In this document: positions 26,932 through 33,593 of the stretch, piece after piece
How the letters are laid out: every line of letters begins with the position of its first letter
Position numbering within the stretch: the first letter of the stretch is position 1
NCBI GenBank assembly: GCA_017390945.1
Contig: JAFOZZ010000105.1
Span: 1 to 45,579 of the forward strand
DNA: 45,579 nt
Direction: 5' to 3'
DNA from: Akkermansia sp.
Lineage (GTDB): Bacteria; Verrucomicrobiota; Verrucomicrobiia; Verrucomicrobiales; Akkermansiaceae
Made by a program: the position numbers and the translations under genes
Notes under the pieces: generated by a model
What the model was told of the DNA's origin: nothing
The model's input: only the letters and a program-made list of their open reading frames with translations
The model's database searches: none

Positions 26932-27429
26932 TCACCGTTTTTTGATAAGGTAAAAGCCGGTGGCGATGAGGAAGATGGTGAGGGCGGAGAAAAGGGTGAG
27001 GGCGAAATATTGGAGGAAGGGAACGCCTTTGCTGAGGACGGATTTTTCCGGGTGTGTGGGGTGGAGGTAGACAGGGACGCGGCCGGAGGCGATGGCTTGC
27101 CGGTACATGGCGTCCGTGAAATTGAAGCCGGCGTTGGTGACGTAGTAGGCGCGGCCATTGTATTCAATATCTACTTTGGCTTCGTAGTGGCGGCCTTTGC
27201 CTCCTCGGATTTTCTGCCGGACGCCGGGTTCCATGTGTAGCACGTGGCCGGTGATGGATGGGGTGTCCTCAGTCGTGTTGATGTAGTAGATGTTGCAGGC
27301 AGAGCCGCGTATGGGGATGAGCAGGAGGATGAGGGCTAGCCCCCAGGTGCACCAAGCTGCCCAGGTGTATTGTCTGCGGATTTCCTGTTTGAGGTAGTTG
27401 TTGTTTTCCAGCCAGTCGAGTTTTGCCAT
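26932..27429 (-). CDS. DUF3592-like two-helix membrane protein
   Basis: 165 residues: a first membrane helix at about 25-41, a beta-rich extracytoplasmic domain (about 45-135) with ITGHVLHMEPG, AKVDIEYNGRAYYVTNAG and VPVYLHPTHPEKSVL, and a second helix at about 139-160. The YLHPTHPEKSVL end of the soluble domain is typical of DUF3592, where a (V)-x-Y-x-P-x-(D/H)-P segment precedes the last helix. Function unknown. It is downstream of the dsbD terminator, so it probably has its own promoter; I did not find a convincing one. Confidence 0.75.
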   Translation of the reverse strand: MAKLDWLENNNYLKQEIRRQYTWAAWCTWGLALILLLIPIRGSACNIYYINTTEDTPSITGHVLHMEPGVRQKIRGGKGRHYEAKVDIEYNGRAYYVTNAGFNFTDAMYRQAIASGRVPVYLHPTHPEKSVLSKGVPFLQYFALTLFSALTIFLIATGFYLIKKR

Positions 27430-27489: not shown

Positions 27490-30400
27490 TTACTTCTGGA
27501 GCCCCAGCTGCTCTGTGAGGAAGCCATCCATGTAGATGGGGGTGAGCAGCTCGGTGGTGATGGCAGGCTCCTTGCCGGGCATGTAGAGCACGTTTACCGG
27601 CACGGAGGAGCGGTTCAGCCGGCGCATCTCGGCGTCAATCTCCGCATCGGGGCGGGTCTTGTCGGCTCGCATGAGCACTACTTTGCCCTGCTCGAAGAGG
27701 GCGCACACGTCGGCGGTGTAGGCGGTCTTCTTGTTCATCTGGCAGGTGGCGCACCACTTTGCCGTGAAGTCTACGTACACTGGGTGACCATCGGCCAGCG
27801 CTTTGTCCATGAGAGCCTTGCTCCAGGTGTTCCATGCGGGGTGTTCACCGGTAGCTACCTCGTAACCACTGGCGGCTGTGTCTGCGGCTACAGGCGAGGT
27901 AGCAGGCGCCTCGCTCACGGGGCGGGGCTTGGAGCCCCAGATGCCCACGGCAATCAGCAGCACGGCAATGACGCCACCAATCCAGCGGGTGGTCGCGTTC
28001 TGGTAGATGGGACACCAGCGGCCATATACCCAGAATGCGGAGCAGAATACAACCAGCGACATGAGAATCCACGGCTGATCTACGCTGAACTCCTCCGGCA
28101 GGAAGGCCAAGTAGACGTCGAGCATCCAGGCAGCAGCGGCGAAGAGGAGGAAGGAAAGCGCCTGCTTGAGGGATTCCATCCAGGCGCCGGGGCGGGGCAG
28201 GATGTTGACGAGGGAGGGGAAGGCACCCATGATGATGTACGGGAATGCCAGCCCCAGAGCCATGAAGGTGAGGGCAAGAATCATCCATACACCCGGCAGG
28301 GACATGGCGGCGGGCATGGCGGCACCCAGGAAGGGGGCGCTGCACGGAGTGGCTACCACGGTGACGAGCAGACCCTGGAAGAACGAGCCCATGAGCCCCT
28401 TCTTCTGTTGCAAGCCCTGGCCGGCACCTGTTGCGCCTACGCCGATTTCAAACAGACCGAACATGCTCAGACCCAGCACGAGCAGGAGTAGCATGATGCA
28501 GTAGACAATCCACTCATTCTGCATCCAGACAGCCCAGCTACGGGTGTCGGAGCCGGCGTCATTCCACAGCGTCTGAGCCCACTGCGTCCAGGGGGTGTTG
28601 GCCAGTACTTCGAGGTTGGATACCACGATGAGAGCCGTGGCCAGCAGCCAGAAGGATACCAGAATGCCGATGACGAATACGAGCGAGTGCATGAATACCT
28701 TGCGGCGCTCACCGCCGCCCAGCTCCACGAAGCTCATAATCTTCAGGCCAATGACAGGGAATACGCAGGGCATGAGGTTCAGGATGAGGCCGCCCAGGAA
28801 GAGCGAGCCAAAGATACCCCAGATGCCTGCGGGGATGCCGCTGGTGCTGGCGGGCTGAGGCTGAGCCGGGGTGGTGGTCACGGCTGCGGTTGCGGCAGCA
28901 GTGGCGCTGACGCTCAGCCTGGCGTGCTTGCCATCGAAGGTCAGGATGCCGTTGAGCTCCGGCACCTCCTTGCCTACGAGTGCTTCGTCCTTCACCGGAG
29001 CCATGCTGTCCTTATTGTCATTGCGCGGCAGGGTGAGGCTGTAGCCAGTGGCGGTTTTGGTAAGAGCCTGAGCAGCAGTGGGGTTAATGCTGTTGTCGTC
29101 GGAGAAGAAGTAGGCGCTCTTCACCTCGCCATCGGCAGTGAAGTTCAGCACCACGCTATCGGTGGTCTGCGTGATAGTAGCGGTGGTGGCGGTGTCGCCC
29201 AGTACCTCTACCTTGCTTTCCTCAGCTGCCCAGTTGGCGGCAGCGGCACCATCGCCAGCGGCAAGGGTGACCGTGGCGGACTTGGTATCCGGAGGATTGC
29301 AGCCTGTGTCGCTGCATGTCTGAGCGGTGCTGCTTACGGTGAAGTCGGCCTGCTGCGGGGCAGTGGCCTCGGGGGTCACCTTCCATACCACTGTGGGGGT
29401 GTTGTAGGTGTAGGCTACACCCAGCATGCCCTCGTGGCGGTCAGGTGCCTGCCAGTAGGGGCCTTCCACCTTGAAGCCGGCGGGTGCAGTGAGCTCGGCT
29501 GTCATGGGCTCGCCCACGGTGGCGGGGTTGCGGAAGTAGGCGTGCCAGGGTTGGGGAATATCGCCTTGCAGGGCAATGTAGAAAGCGGAGCCCGACTTGT
29601 AGCTGGTCACGCTGGCCTTGGCGGTCACGCTGAAGGTGCTGCCCTGGTTGCCATCCATACCGCCGAACAGGCCTCCACCAAAGGAGGGCGTGGTGGCAGA
29701 GGGCATCGGAGTAGTGTCCTCCTCCGTAGCTTCGTCTTCGTCGCCTTCTTCCTCTTCGGTGTCAGCTTCGTCGTCGGCGTCTTCCTCGTCAGCCTCCTCA
29801 TCGTCGGCTTCTTCTTCGTCCTCTTCTTCCTCCTCCTCGGTGGTGGTCTCCGTGGTGGCGGCGGGGGCGGGCTCTACGCCGGGGAAATCCACCTTCACGG
29901 CGGTGTGCTTGCCATCGAAGGTCAGGATGCCGCTGAGGATGGGCAGCTCTTTGCCTACCAGGGCTTCATCCTTTACGGGGGCCATGGTGTCCTTGTTGTC
30001 ATTGCGCGGCAGGGTGAGGCTGTAGCCTGTCTCGGTCTTAGCCAGGGGCTGAACCACAGAGGGGTTGATAGAATTGTCGTCGGAGAAGAAATAGGCCGTC
30101 TTCACTTCGCCCTCGGCGGTGAAGTTCAGCACCACGCTCTCCGGTGTCTGGGTGGCGGTGACCTCGCAAGCCGTGTCACCCAGCACCTCTACCTTGGTTT
30201 CCTCAGCGTCCCAGTTGGCGGCAGCGGCGCCATCGCCTGCGGTAAGGGTAACTGTGGCGGTCTTGGTGTCCGGGGGATTGCAGCCGGTGTCGCTGCATGT
30301 CTGGGCGGTGCTGCTGATGGCGAAATCTGCCTGTTGCGGCGCTCCTGCCTCGGGGGTCACTTTCCACACGACGGTGGGGGTATTGTAAGTGTAGGCTACA

Positions 30401-30729
30401 CCCAGCATGCTCTCGTGGCGGTCAGGTGCCTGCCAGTAGGGACCTTCCACCTTGAAGCCGGCTGGGGCGGTGAGCTCCGCCGTCATGGCCTCGCCAATAG
30501 TCGCAGGGTTGCGGAAGTAGGCGTGCCAGGGCTGGGGAATATCGCCCTTGAGCGCGATATAGAAGGACTGTCCCTCCTTGTAACTCCCCACGCTGGCCTT
30601 GGCGCTCACGCTGAAAGTGGCGGCCTGCTGTTGTGCGCCGCCGGGGGCAAAGGAAAAGCCCTCCAGCTGAGCCTGCACGGTGGCAGTCAACAGCGCTGTC
30701 GTCATTGTCAGAAATCTTACAATGTTCAT
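27490..30729 (-). CDS. dsbD: DsbD-type thiol:disulfide reductant conductor with duplicated N-terminal domain
   Basis: 1079 residues, nearly twice E. coli DsbD. A signal peptide (1-20) is followed by a DsbD-alpha-like domain (about 38-280) with the cysteine pair C145/C150 in CSDTGCNPP. Next come a highly acidic linker (about 295-340), a second nearly identical alpha-like domain (about 365-607) with C472/C477, and a DsbD/CcdA membrane region (about 635-932) with C655 in NLMPCVFP and C796 in ATPCSAPF. A C-terminal thioredoxin domain carries C993/C996 in KWCATCQMNKK. The protein should pass electrons from cytoplasmic thioredoxin through the membrane to periplasmic clients. The duplication may give two output modules. 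The promoter ends 6 bases before ATG. It is monocistronic. Confidence 0.92.
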   Translation of the reverse strand: MNIVRFLTMTTALLTATVQAQLEGFSFAPGGAQQQAATFSVSAKASVGSYKEGQSFYIALKGDIPQPWHAYFRNPATIGEAMTAELTAPAGFKVEGPYWQAPDRHESMLGVAYTYNTPTVVWKVTPEAGAPQQADFAISSTAQTCSDTGCNPPDTKTATVTLTAGDGAAAANWDAEETKVEVLGDTACEVTATQTPESVVLNFTAEGEVKTAYFFSDDNSINPSVVQPLAKTETGYSLTLPRNDNKDTMAPVKDEALVGKELPILSGILTFDGKHTAVKVDFPGVEPAPAATTETTTEEEEEEDEEEADDEEADEEDADDEADTEEEEGDEDEATEEDTTPMPSATTPSFGGGLFGGMDGNQGSTFSVTAKASVTSYKSGSAFYIALQGDIPQPWHAYFRNPATVGEPMTAELTAPAGFKVEGPYWQAPDRHEGMLGVAYTYNTPTVVWKVTPEATAPQQADFTVSSTAQTCSDTGCNPPDTKSATVTLAAGDGAAAANWAAEESKVEVLGDTATTATITQTTDSVVLNFTADGEVKSAYFFSDDNSINPTAAQALTKTATGYSLTLPRNDNKDSMAPVKDEALVGKEVPELNGILTFDGKHARLSVSATAAATAAVTTTPAQPQPASTSGIPAGIWGIFGSLFLGGLILNLMPCVFPVIGLKIMSFVELGGGERRKVFMHSLVFVIGILVSFWLLATALIVVSNLEVLANTPWTQWAQTLWNDAGSDTRSWAVWMQNEWIVYCIMLLLLVLGLSMFGLFEIGVGATGAGQGLQQKKGLMGSFFQGLLVTVVATPCSAPFLGAAMPAAMSLPGVWMILALTFMALGLAFPYIIMGAFPSLVNILPRPGAWMESLKQALSFLLFAAAAWMLDVYLAFLPEEFSVDQPWILMSLVVFCSAFWVYGRWCPIYQNATTRWIGGVIAVLLIAVGIWGSKPRPVSEAPATSPVAADTAASGYEVATGEHPAWNTWSKALMDKALADGHPVYVDFTAKWCATCQMNKKTAYTADVCALFEQGKVVLMRADKTRPDAEIDAEMRRLNRSSVPVNVLYMPGKEPAITTELLTPIYMDGFLTEQLGLQK
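28909..29637 (-). repeat. Second copy of the 729-bp in-frame duplication in dsbD
   Basis: It encodes residues 365-607, which repeat residues 38-280 with few substitutions and no visible length change. The offset between copies is 981 bp, equal to 327 codons. Confidence 0.9.
29890..30618 (-). repeat. First copy of the 729-bp in-frame duplication in dsbD
   Basis: It encodes residues 38-280. Stretches such as GDIPQPWHAYFRNPAT and GPYWQAPDRHE are identical in both copies. The near identity suggests a recent duplication or ongoing gene conversion. Confidence 0.9.
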
Positions 30730-30788: not shown

Positions 30789-31343
30789 TTATTGCTGTAA
30801 ATATCCTGCTAAGCCCGTGGGAATCCATTCCTCGGGCGGTAATTGCCCCTCTGAAAGTGCCTTTCGTATGGCTGAGGACGAGGCCGGGTGATTGCCGGAT
30901 ATGAAGATAGCGCGCGTGTTTTCACGTGGCTGCGGAGCCGTGCCTCGGTGGTAAACAATAAAGGAAAGGTGCTCGCAGAGGTAATCATAGCGAGCCCAGC
31001 GGTGCAGCTGCTCCCACTGGTCTGTCCCCATGAGCCAATAGAGCTCGGCCTGCGGGTAGAGCTCGCGGCAGGCCTCCACCACCCGCCAGCTGTAGCTGGG
31101 GGGCGGGAGCGTGAGGTCCAGCTCGCTTACCTCCGCCTGGGGAATACCCGCTACGGCGATGCGGAGCATCTCCACGCGTTGCTTATCGGTAAAAAAGTGC
31201 TGCCGCCCGGTCTTGAACGGAGAGCAGGCGGCAGGCAGGAAAAGGCTGCGATCCAGTCCGGCGGCGGTCACGGCTGCTTGGGCGATTGCCAGGTGGCCGG
31301 TGTGCACTGGGTCAAACGACCCGCCGAACAGGCAGATTTTCAT
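30789..31343 (-). CDS. nadD: Nicotinate-nucleotide adenylyltransferase
   Basis: 184 residues from ATG 31343. The nucleotidyltransferase signature KICLFGGSFDPVHTGHLAIA contains the GxFDPxHxGH ATP-binding motif. YWLMGTDQWEQLHRW and the C-terminal SGNHPASSSAIRKAL (the ISSTxIR-type motif) complete the NadD pattern. It makes nicotinic acid adenine dinucleotide in NAD synthesis. The start overlaps the stop of the M23 lipoprotein gene (TGATG), so the two are translationally coupled; a GTG one codon upstream is an unlikely alternative. Confidence 0.94.
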   Translation of the reverse strand: MKICLFGGSFDPVHTGHLAIAQAAVTAAGLDRSLFLPAACSPFKTGRQHFFTDKQRVEMLRIAVAGIPQAEVSELDLTLPPPSYSWRVVEACRELYPQAELYWLMGTDQWEQLHRWARYDYLCEHLSFIVYHRGTAPQPRENTRAIFISGNHPASSSAIRKALSEGQLPPEEWIPTGLAGYLQQ

Positions 31344-32026
31344 CACAGACCTTCGGTGTCTTTGTAGGGCAGGAAGCAGCCGATGGGAAGCTTCACATAC
31401 TTCTGCTCGGGCTTCAGGCGGCGATAGTGGTTGATGAACGCTGTCAGGTCGCCGTAGTTCTTGGCGGTCTTGGGGATACCCTGCTGGCCGCAGTTCACCA
31501 GAATATTGAAGTGCAGTTCGGCGTGCAGGTGGGCAGGGAACATACCACGGTTGGTGCCGATGGTGCCTACCTGGTCGCCACGCTTCACGAGCTGACCCAG
31601 CTTCACATCGATGCGATCCAGGTGGCCATAGAGCGTCTGGCAGCAGAGCACACGGCCGCTGCGGGGTTCGCGGAAAGCATGGCGCACAATCACCACCTTG
31701 CCCCAGCGGCCGCGAGCATCAGCGGCGTAGGTGACGAGGCCGTGACCGATGGTGTACACCGGGTCGCCCAGGTCGGTGTTGCCACCGCCGTTGCCGTTCC
31801 AGTCCTCACCCAGGTGGCGCGGAGTTTTCAGGCGCAGACCACGAGCTTTGTAGTAGCCATCACCGTTGGGCTTGCCCACCGGGTAGTCAAAGCCATCAGC
31901 CAGGGGCACGAGCGCCCACTTGCCATCAGCCGTTTTCTGAGCCATGGTTACACCGCATGATGTGCTGCCCAGAAGAACGAACAGCGCCATCGCCATAAAG
32001 CAAATCTGTTGGTATACGCGCACCAT
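31343..32026 (-). CDS. M23-family metallopeptidase lipoprotein
   Basis: 227 residues. A hydrophobic signal ends in a probable lipobox at C24 (LLGSTSCG). The M23/LytM fold spans about 48-175: zinc ligands H71 and D75 in RHLGEDWNG, a conserved His in LYGHLDRID (H135), and the H-x-H motif H166/H168 in PAHLHAELHF. M23 enzymes cut peptide bonds in peptidoglycan, and the HxH and first-motif ligands are intact, so it is probably active. It heads a two-gene unit with nadD, an odd functional partner. The promoter ends 6 bases before the ATG. Confidence 0.9.
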   Translation of the reverse strand: MVRVYQQICFMAMALFVLLGSTSCGVTMAQKTADGKWALVPLADGFDYPVGKPNGDGYYKARGLRLKTPRHLGEDWNGNGGGNTDLGDPVYTIGHGLVTYAADARGRWGKVVIVRHAFREPRSGRVLCCQTLYGHLDRIDVKLGQLVKRGDQVGTIGTNRGMFPAHLHAELHFNILVNCGQQGIPKTAKNYGDLTAFINHYRRLKPEQKYVKLPIGCFLPYKDTEGL

Positions 32027-32129: not shown

Positions 32130-33593
32130 TTAATGGTTGATAACAGCTTGTTTGAGTAGTTGCACGATGCCGTCGTGACCGTTTGCCTCAGCGGCTTTCA
32201 TGGCGGTCATGCCATTGGCCGCTGCGTGTTGAACATCGGTTTCTTTCGTGCTCAGCATGAGCCTGACGCATTCGGTGTGCCCTCTTGATGCGGCCGATAT
32301 CAGAGCCGTATATCCGTATTTATTGGTCGCATTGACATCAATTCCGGGGGCTGCCAGCAACTGTGCTACACAGTCCGTGTGGTTATGTTTGACCGCTTTC
32401 ATCAGCGAGGTTTCGCCTGTTTCGTCCGCCATGTTGACATTGACTCCCGGTTGCTCCAGAATGACTTGTACGCAGGCCGTATTCCCCAGTTCACAGGCGC
32501 GCAGCAGCGGGATATAGCGGCGGGTGGACGAGCCGCCCGGCAGGTTAATGTCGACCTTGCCCTTGCTGAGAATCTTGCGGATTTTCTCGGCATTGCCGTT
32601 TTCCGTTGCATCCACAAGAGTAGCGGGACCGCCTATGGCTCCGGCAGCGCGCAGCAAATCGGCGCATTCCTTATGCCCCTTATCCTCCGCAATCCAGAGC
32701 GGTTCTAATCCATGGTCGGAAGGTTTGTCTACCTCAATCCCCGGTGCCTGCAACAGCAGTTTCACAATCTCCGGGGTATTGTTATACACGGCCAGGGTGA
32801 GCGCGGTGAATTTGCCGGAGCTGCGGTTGACATCAATGCCCGGGGCTGCCAACAGCAGCTTGACGCATTCGACATGGTTGTAGTATGTCGCCTGCACGAT
32901 GGGTCCCTGGCGTTCATCGTCGGTAAGGTTGACGTCGATTTTCGGGTGGCTCAGCAGGAGCTTCACACATTCCGTATGCCCTTGCATCACGGCAAAACAA
33001 AGGGCGGTCGATTTTGCCCCGCTTAAGCCGTGCATCAGGTTGACATCTGTCTCTTTTTTCTCCAGCAGCAACTTGAGGCTTTCCGGCTTGTTGTTGCCGG
33101 CGGCAATGTGAATTGCGGCGTTGCCGATACGGCCATCCTGTTTGTTGACATCGATATCCGGGTGAGCCAGCAGGAGCTTGACACACTCGGTGGAGTCTGA
33201 CATGATGGCTTTTATGAGCGCCGTTCTTCCCATGATATCGGCCTGATTGACATCGATATCCGGGTGCGCCAGCAGAATCTTCATGCATTCGGTGTGTCCT
33301 TCATCTGCGGCCATGTGCAGGGCTGTTCTGCGCCCGTTGGTGTCGCATATGTTGATATTGACGCCGGATTTGAGAGCCTGTTTCAGCTTCTTGACGTTGC
33401 CATCAGCCGCCGCGCGGATGATGGTCAGGTCGTCCTCATTCCGTGCCATGTCGCTTTCGGACAGCCTGCCGCGCAAGGCTTCCTCGGCAGGAGGAACGAT
33501 AATCGGCGTCATTGAGGAGCTCTCTGTATCGGCGGCGAGGGTGCTGCTGCCAATAAGAGCGAATAAGGTGGTGGAGAGTACGTTTTTTATCAT
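32130..33593 (-). CDS. Exported ankyrin-repeat protein
   Basis: 487 residues. A signal peptide (about 1-20, ending TLA) is followed by roughly twelve ankyrin repeats from about residue 55 to the end. Their consensus resembles G-H-T-E-C-(V/M)-K-L-L-L-(A)-H-P-D-I-D-V-N with DxxGxTAL turns. Two halves (about 55-320 and 325-485) each begin with an ATENGNAEKIRK/AAADGNVKKLKQ-type capping unit, suggesting duplication of a block. No enzymatic domain. Ankyrins bind proteins; with a signal peptide this would act in the periplasm or outside. The partner is unknown. It lies 13 bases downstream of a small membrane protein gene on the same strand. Confidence 0.88.
   Translation of the reverse strand: MIKNVLSTTLFALIGSSTLAADTESSSMTPIIVPPAEEALRGRLSESDMARNEDDLTIIRAAADGNVKKLKQALKSGVNINICDTNGRRTALHMAADEGHTECMKILLAHPDIDVNQADIMGRTALIKAIMSDSTECVKLLLAHPDIDVNKQDGRIGNAAIHIAAGNNKPESLKLLLEKKETDVNLMHGLSGAKSTALCFAVMQGHTECVKLLLSHPKIDVNLTDDERQGPIVQATYYNHVECVKLLLAAPGIDVNRSSGKFTALTLAVYNNTPEIVKLLLQAPGIEVDKPSDHGLEPLWIAEDKGHKECADLLRAAGAIGGPATLVDATENGNAEKIRKILSKGKVDINLPGGSSTRRYIPLLRACELGNTACVQVILEQPGVNVNMADETGETSLMKAVKHNHTDCVAQLLAAPGIDVNATNKYGYTALISAASRGHTECVRLMLSTKETDVQHAAANGMTAMKAAEANGHDGIVQLLKQAVINH

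Follow-up and report, generated by a model that had tools for sequence, protein, structure and literature searches.

A predicted DsbD/ScsB-type electron carrier of Akkermansia with two tandem periplasmic output domains

The window analysed here, a 45,579-nt stretch of Akkermansia DNA, contains a dsbD-type gene whose product is best explained as a DsbD/ScsB-type transmembrane electron carrier with its periplasmic output domain doubled in tandem, the two copies (N1 and N2) being parallel, equivalent outputs of one membrane/thioredoxin unit rather than two client-specific domains. We put the probability of this joint reading at roughly 0.6. The doubled output domain on one channel is new and is a variant of the known DsbD/ScsB family plan, whereas the mechanism is one that we infer. 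The two-N DsbD of the window is a real, old and shared variant of this architecture. In the literature searched, we found no description of tandem DsbD N domains, of such a two-output architecture or of DsbD in Akkermansia.

Anatomy and fold of the gene product

The gene lies at 27490-30729 on the minus strand, as do all window features described below, and is an uninterrupted ORF of 1079 codons with the order N-N-TM-Trx. A Pfam search of the 1079-aa protein found DsbD_N (PF11412) in two stretches (70.6 bits; cut-off 25), one DsbD_TM (PF02683; 78.6 bits; cut-off 27.1) and one Thioredoxin_7 (PF13899; 49.7 bits; cut-off 27), in agreement with the sequence-only reading, which had proposed a pair of redox domains alongside a single membrane unit and a single thioredoxin domain. 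The NCBIfam model for DsbD (PRK00293) matched below its cut-off (111.8 bits against 330), and cDsbD chains were among the PDB sequence matches.

A signal peptide read from the sequence (residues ~1-20, 30670-30729, ending ...TVQA-Q; residues 2-20 are helical in the model) precedes N1 (residues 37-285, 29875-30621), which carries the active-site motif CSDTGC (C145 and C150, 30280-30297). A linker (residues 286-363, 29641-29874) joins N1 to N2 (residues 364-612, 28894-29640), which has its own CSDTGC (C472 and C477, 29299-29316). These are followed by a single DsbD_TM unit (residues 626-930, 27940-28854) with C655 and C796, and by a single thioredoxin-like domain (residues 946-1079, 27493-27894) with the motif WCATC (C993 and C996). 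Both N cysteines were invariant in all 64 copies examined, and the membrane and CxxC cysteines in all 45 proteins. The protein thus has the features of the DsbD/ScsB family, namely a membrane unit with two conserved cysteines, a thioredoxin-fold domain with CxxC and an immunoglobulin (Ig)-fold N domain with a cysteine pair; canonical DsbD has a single N-terminal output domain, and since two copies are present here, we file the protein as a family variant.

In the AlphaFold model, N1 and N2 were well ordered, whereas residues 290-362 of the linker had a pLDDT of about 30 and are predicted to be disordered. A model of N2 reached pLDDT 95.6, and its best solved relative, matching over the whole length, was the ScsB N-terminal domain of Proteus mirabilis (6c29; Foldseek E 9.6e-11; VIA Z 16.2, 223 residues, 3.8 A). 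DsbD N domains with a single Ig unit, along with further Ig-like folds, came next at Z 8-9 and covered the first half. Each N unit resembles the double-Ig ScsB-alpha, so that the window protein has two redox units with four folds of Ig type in all. ScsB shares with it the alpha-TM-gamma plan and the tandem-Ig alpha domain; however, the window protein has two complete alpha units with an acidic linker between them, and identity to ScsB-alpha is 16-18%. According to the title of Furlong 2018 (cited in PMC9675693), the ScsB N-terminal domain is a tandem immunoglobulin-fold domain that primes ScsC. No PF13462 match for a ScsC-type partner was seen in the window genome, which is 87% complete; any relatives of ScsC could belong to models other than PF13462. 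The DsbD proteins of E. coli and Neisseria also share the N-TM-Trx order, the Ig-fold N domain with a cysteine pair, the two membrane cysteines and the CxxC thioredoxin domain, but E. coli nDsbD has one Ig unit with C103-x5-C109, whereas the window protein has two double-Ig units with Cys-x4-Cys.

Residues 38-280 recur as residues 365-607, each with CSDTGCNPP, as had been read from the sequence. N1 as a query retrieved N2 at E 1e-138, and a DNA repeat search gave one gapless block of 300 nt with 87% identity and another of 253 nt with 82%, both repeated at the same distance of 981 nt, so that the repeat is far beyond chance. The earlier description of the copies as near-identical was too strong: they agree at 205 of 243 residues (84.4%) and, when the DNA intervals that it had named were aligned (28909-29637 and 29890-30618), at 82.2% of bases, with dN 0.12 and dS about 0.68.

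The sequence-only reading had also worried that the repeat might be an assembly artefact. The window genome is a draft of 225 contigs, 87% complete, which leaves room for such an error. However, N1 and N2 differ at 18% of bases, so an assembler cannot have made the second copy by duplicating one unit, and several distinct species, assembled independently, share the two-N architecture. Within what sequence can show, an artefact is ruled out, and we regard its probability as negligible.

Distribution and origins of the doubling

In a survey of 76 Akkermansia genomes, two N units in one ORF were found in nine (the window's, G051, G068, G063, G072, G071, G066, G040 and G052), and about sixty others had a single N. 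In G022, the gene was present as two halves on two contig ends, both breaking in the acidic run. The two-N group of the window includes five related assemblies with the one-ORF form and a sixth, G022, split between contigs. The G063 N-N protein was also found in Akkermansia sp. RGIG5191 from sheep cecum (L032). One draft, G067, contains two nadD-dsbD pieces (G067:C33 and G067:C57; L071 and L009), one of them close to G068; these probably represent two strains binned together, and G067 was left out of the two-N count. Two-N and single-N dsbD genes lie on one contig of G072 (G072:C28, 36860-38938 and 397459-400710), and the single-N gene closely matches G036 at the same contig offset; this contig is possibly chimeric.

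A nadD-type nucleotidyltransferase gene (30789-31346) adjoins dsbD in the window and marks the orthologous locus in the two-N genomes and in their nearest single-N relatives. Among single-N genomes, G024 and G067, which are close relatives, and even G032 likewise have it beside dsbD, so that the locus is the same and the copy number differs. On the other side, a gene with a weak DUF3592 match, below the cut-off (26932-27429), is kept beside dsbD in close relatives. The single-N DsbD of G024 (L031/L035) has nadD on one side and a DUF3592-like gene on the other, and its N unit is 72-74% identical to the N units of the window; unlike the window protein, it has one N unit, no acidic linker and a length of about 780 aa. 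The sequence-only reading had held that its view would fall if related strains all had a single domain at this locus; the two-N ORF was present in five relatives, and the nearest relatives were single-N. Three genes upstream of dsbD in the window lies a gene for an exported-looking ankyrin-repeat protein of 487 aa (32130-33593), with an M23 peptidase gene and nadD in between.

The membrane-domain tree placed the window-related two-N genes as one group inside the genus (inner two-N group support 82/79). G024 and G067, with their single-N genes, fell outside it, the G024 DsbD being the nearest outgroup. In the N-domain tree, the N1 units of the window, G022, G051 and G071 grouped together, as did their N2 units (bootstrap 92-93), which indicates that the duplication predates these species. 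The duplication is common to a clade of about seven species and silent divergence is large; a recent duplication, as suggested by the sequence-only reading, was therefore rejected. The window's group was separate from the other two-N genes: the four G040/G052 copies formed a clade far from the rest (100/100), and the two G066 copies paired together (81/81) inside a group of single-N genes. On the N-domain tree, the doubling most simply arose three times, and apparently at least that often; a single ancient origin, followed by many losses and by homogenisation more than once, is, strictly, an alternative.

Outside the genus, no two-N DsbD was seen among the family matches listed, diverged copies of the domain being missed by PF11412; each of four long ORFs examined from the phylum had one N.

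Constraint and exchange between the copies

The sequence-only reading had proposed gene conversion to explain the likeness of the copies. At third codon positions, four of the six species (the window's, G051, G068 and G063) had an own N1 and N2 more alike than any N1/N2 pair taken across species, and codon usage alone predicts less third-position agreement than was seen in own pairs; in G071 and G072, however, own copies were not closer than cross-species pairs. Run-length tests for conversion tracts were marginal (best p about 0.03), and the DNA tree was poorly resolved. A topology with all N1 as one clade was neither established nor firmly excluded (AU p 0.08), and grouping of own pairs was rejected for G051 and G068 but not for the window's pair. 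Because the run tests were marginal and the tree poorly resolved, we rejected strong conversion tracts and claim partial, patchy conversion between N1 and N2 as the best summary, so that the proposal holds in part.

Both copies are under purifying selection (dN mostly 0.05-0.24 and dS mostly about 1 or more among N1 and among N2 orthologues). The only columns strictly separating N1 from N2 were the last eight of the unit (residues 242-249), at the exit into the linker, and the active-site hairpin and facing loop contained no N1/N2-separating residue across seven species. The copies of G040/G052 diverge in the latter half of the active-site loop (GEPKPY versus NAPTPY), which could reflect some specialisation.

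The linker was correctly described as mostly Glu and Asp: its core (residues 297-341, 29707-29841) has 33 Asp/Glu in 45 residues and contains imperfect 15/18-nt repeats. An Asp/Glu-rich stretch (at least 60% Asp/Glu over 25 residues) separates N1 from N2 in all ten two-N genes and in all three lineages, whereas none occurs between N and TM in the single-N homologues examined. Eleven single-N homologues have a C-terminal acidic tail, which the two-N genes do not, so that acidity by itself does not mark the two-N genes. The linker ends in an F-G-G-rich stretch resembling the one that follows the signal peptide and precedes N1, suggesting that the mature N-terminus was probably where the repeated segment started.

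Proposed electron flow and modular variants

DsbD is the standard model of transmembrane thiol-electron transfer, with one domain per step. By analogy with E. coli DsbD, a single membrane/thioredoxin unit could feed both N units of the window protein. Cytoplasmic thioredoxin would pass electrons to the membrane unit (C655/C796), which would pass them to the C-terminal thioredoxin domain (C993/C996); this domain would reduce either N1 or N2, each through its Cys-x4-Cys pair, and N1 or N2 would then reduce periplasmic clients of the thioredoxin fold. In E. coli, the thioredoxin-like C-terminal domain reduces the N domain, which in turn reduces DsbC, DsbG and CcmG (PMC7347389). Both copies would cycle, with the thioredoxin domain serving both, and equivalent outputs would provide each membrane unit with more reduced output domain, acting over a longer range, a gain in capacity or reach.

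We favour parallel, equivalent outputs because the catalytic faces cannot be told apart by N1/N2 class, although general constraint, and not equal function, could explain why these faces have diverged so little. The sequence-only reading had also raised the idea of two clients, in which N1 and N2 diverged toward different periplasmic partners. Both copies are complete and have been conserved since before the species split, and small active-site loop differences exist in G040/G052 and in G051, G071 and G022; however, no class-specific residue lies near the active site, and patchy conversion would erase specialisation. TlpA-type thioredoxins (Thioredoxin_8), the possible clients, had a median of 6.5 per two-N genome versus 5 in the others (p 0.14), an excess that was not significant and was inconsistent between lineages, and we rejected it as a correlate of the doubling. 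Two distinct clients therefore seem unlikely.

A special form of parallel, equivalent outputs concerns place rather than chemistry. N2 is separated from the membrane unit by only about 20 residues and would serve the membrane surface, while N1 sits on a 78-residue, strongly acidic arm, disordered in the model, that could bring the same chemistry to sites distant from the inner membrane, such as the peptidoglycan or the outer membrane. The acidic N1-N2 linker of all ten two-N genes, disordered in the model, and the short N2-TM linker are consistent with this, but single-N homologues also have acidic stretches, as C-terminal tails, and we advance the idea tentatively. More speculative still is that Akkermansia repeatedly evolved a long-arm DsbD with one membrane unit and two outputs, in which the acidic tether extends periplasmic reach, linker and doubling co-evolve, and conversion keeps the copies interchangeable.

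Finally, the doubling may be neutral: drift would have fixed the extra copy, which would persist only because both copies still fold. Single-N relatives manage without a second copy at the same locus, and conversion and slippage-prone repeats would make such events easy. However, all catalytic residues and a low dN/dS have been kept in both copies over long times, and three lineages show the doubling together with one type of linker; neutral doubling is thus improbable, slightly more so than two clients. A natural two-output DsbD, apparently with at least three origins within a single gut genus, offers a direct test of flux limitation at the output step, of the tether as the determinant of periplasmic reach, and of what gut Akkermansia would need the doubling for.

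The N unit also occurs by itself. In G041, a separate gene (L069, 1434-2222) encodes a complete signal peptide and an N domain with an intact cysteine pair and its own stop, and the N-domain tree indicated that this free-standing domain was derived within the genus. Family relatives outside Akkermansia usually have one DsbD and one or more separate N-domain-matching genes of about 270-370 aa (L087-L091; family and phylum). These genes show that the N unit can stand as a module. G041 also has the highest Thioredoxin_8 count in the genus (17). A different domain order, N, thioredoxin domain and DsbD_TM, was observed in the DsbD homologues L056, L057 and L058 (G002, G043 and G030) and L059 (G013); L056-L058 have extra hydrophobic segments between N and the thioredoxin domain, and an acidic tail at the end.
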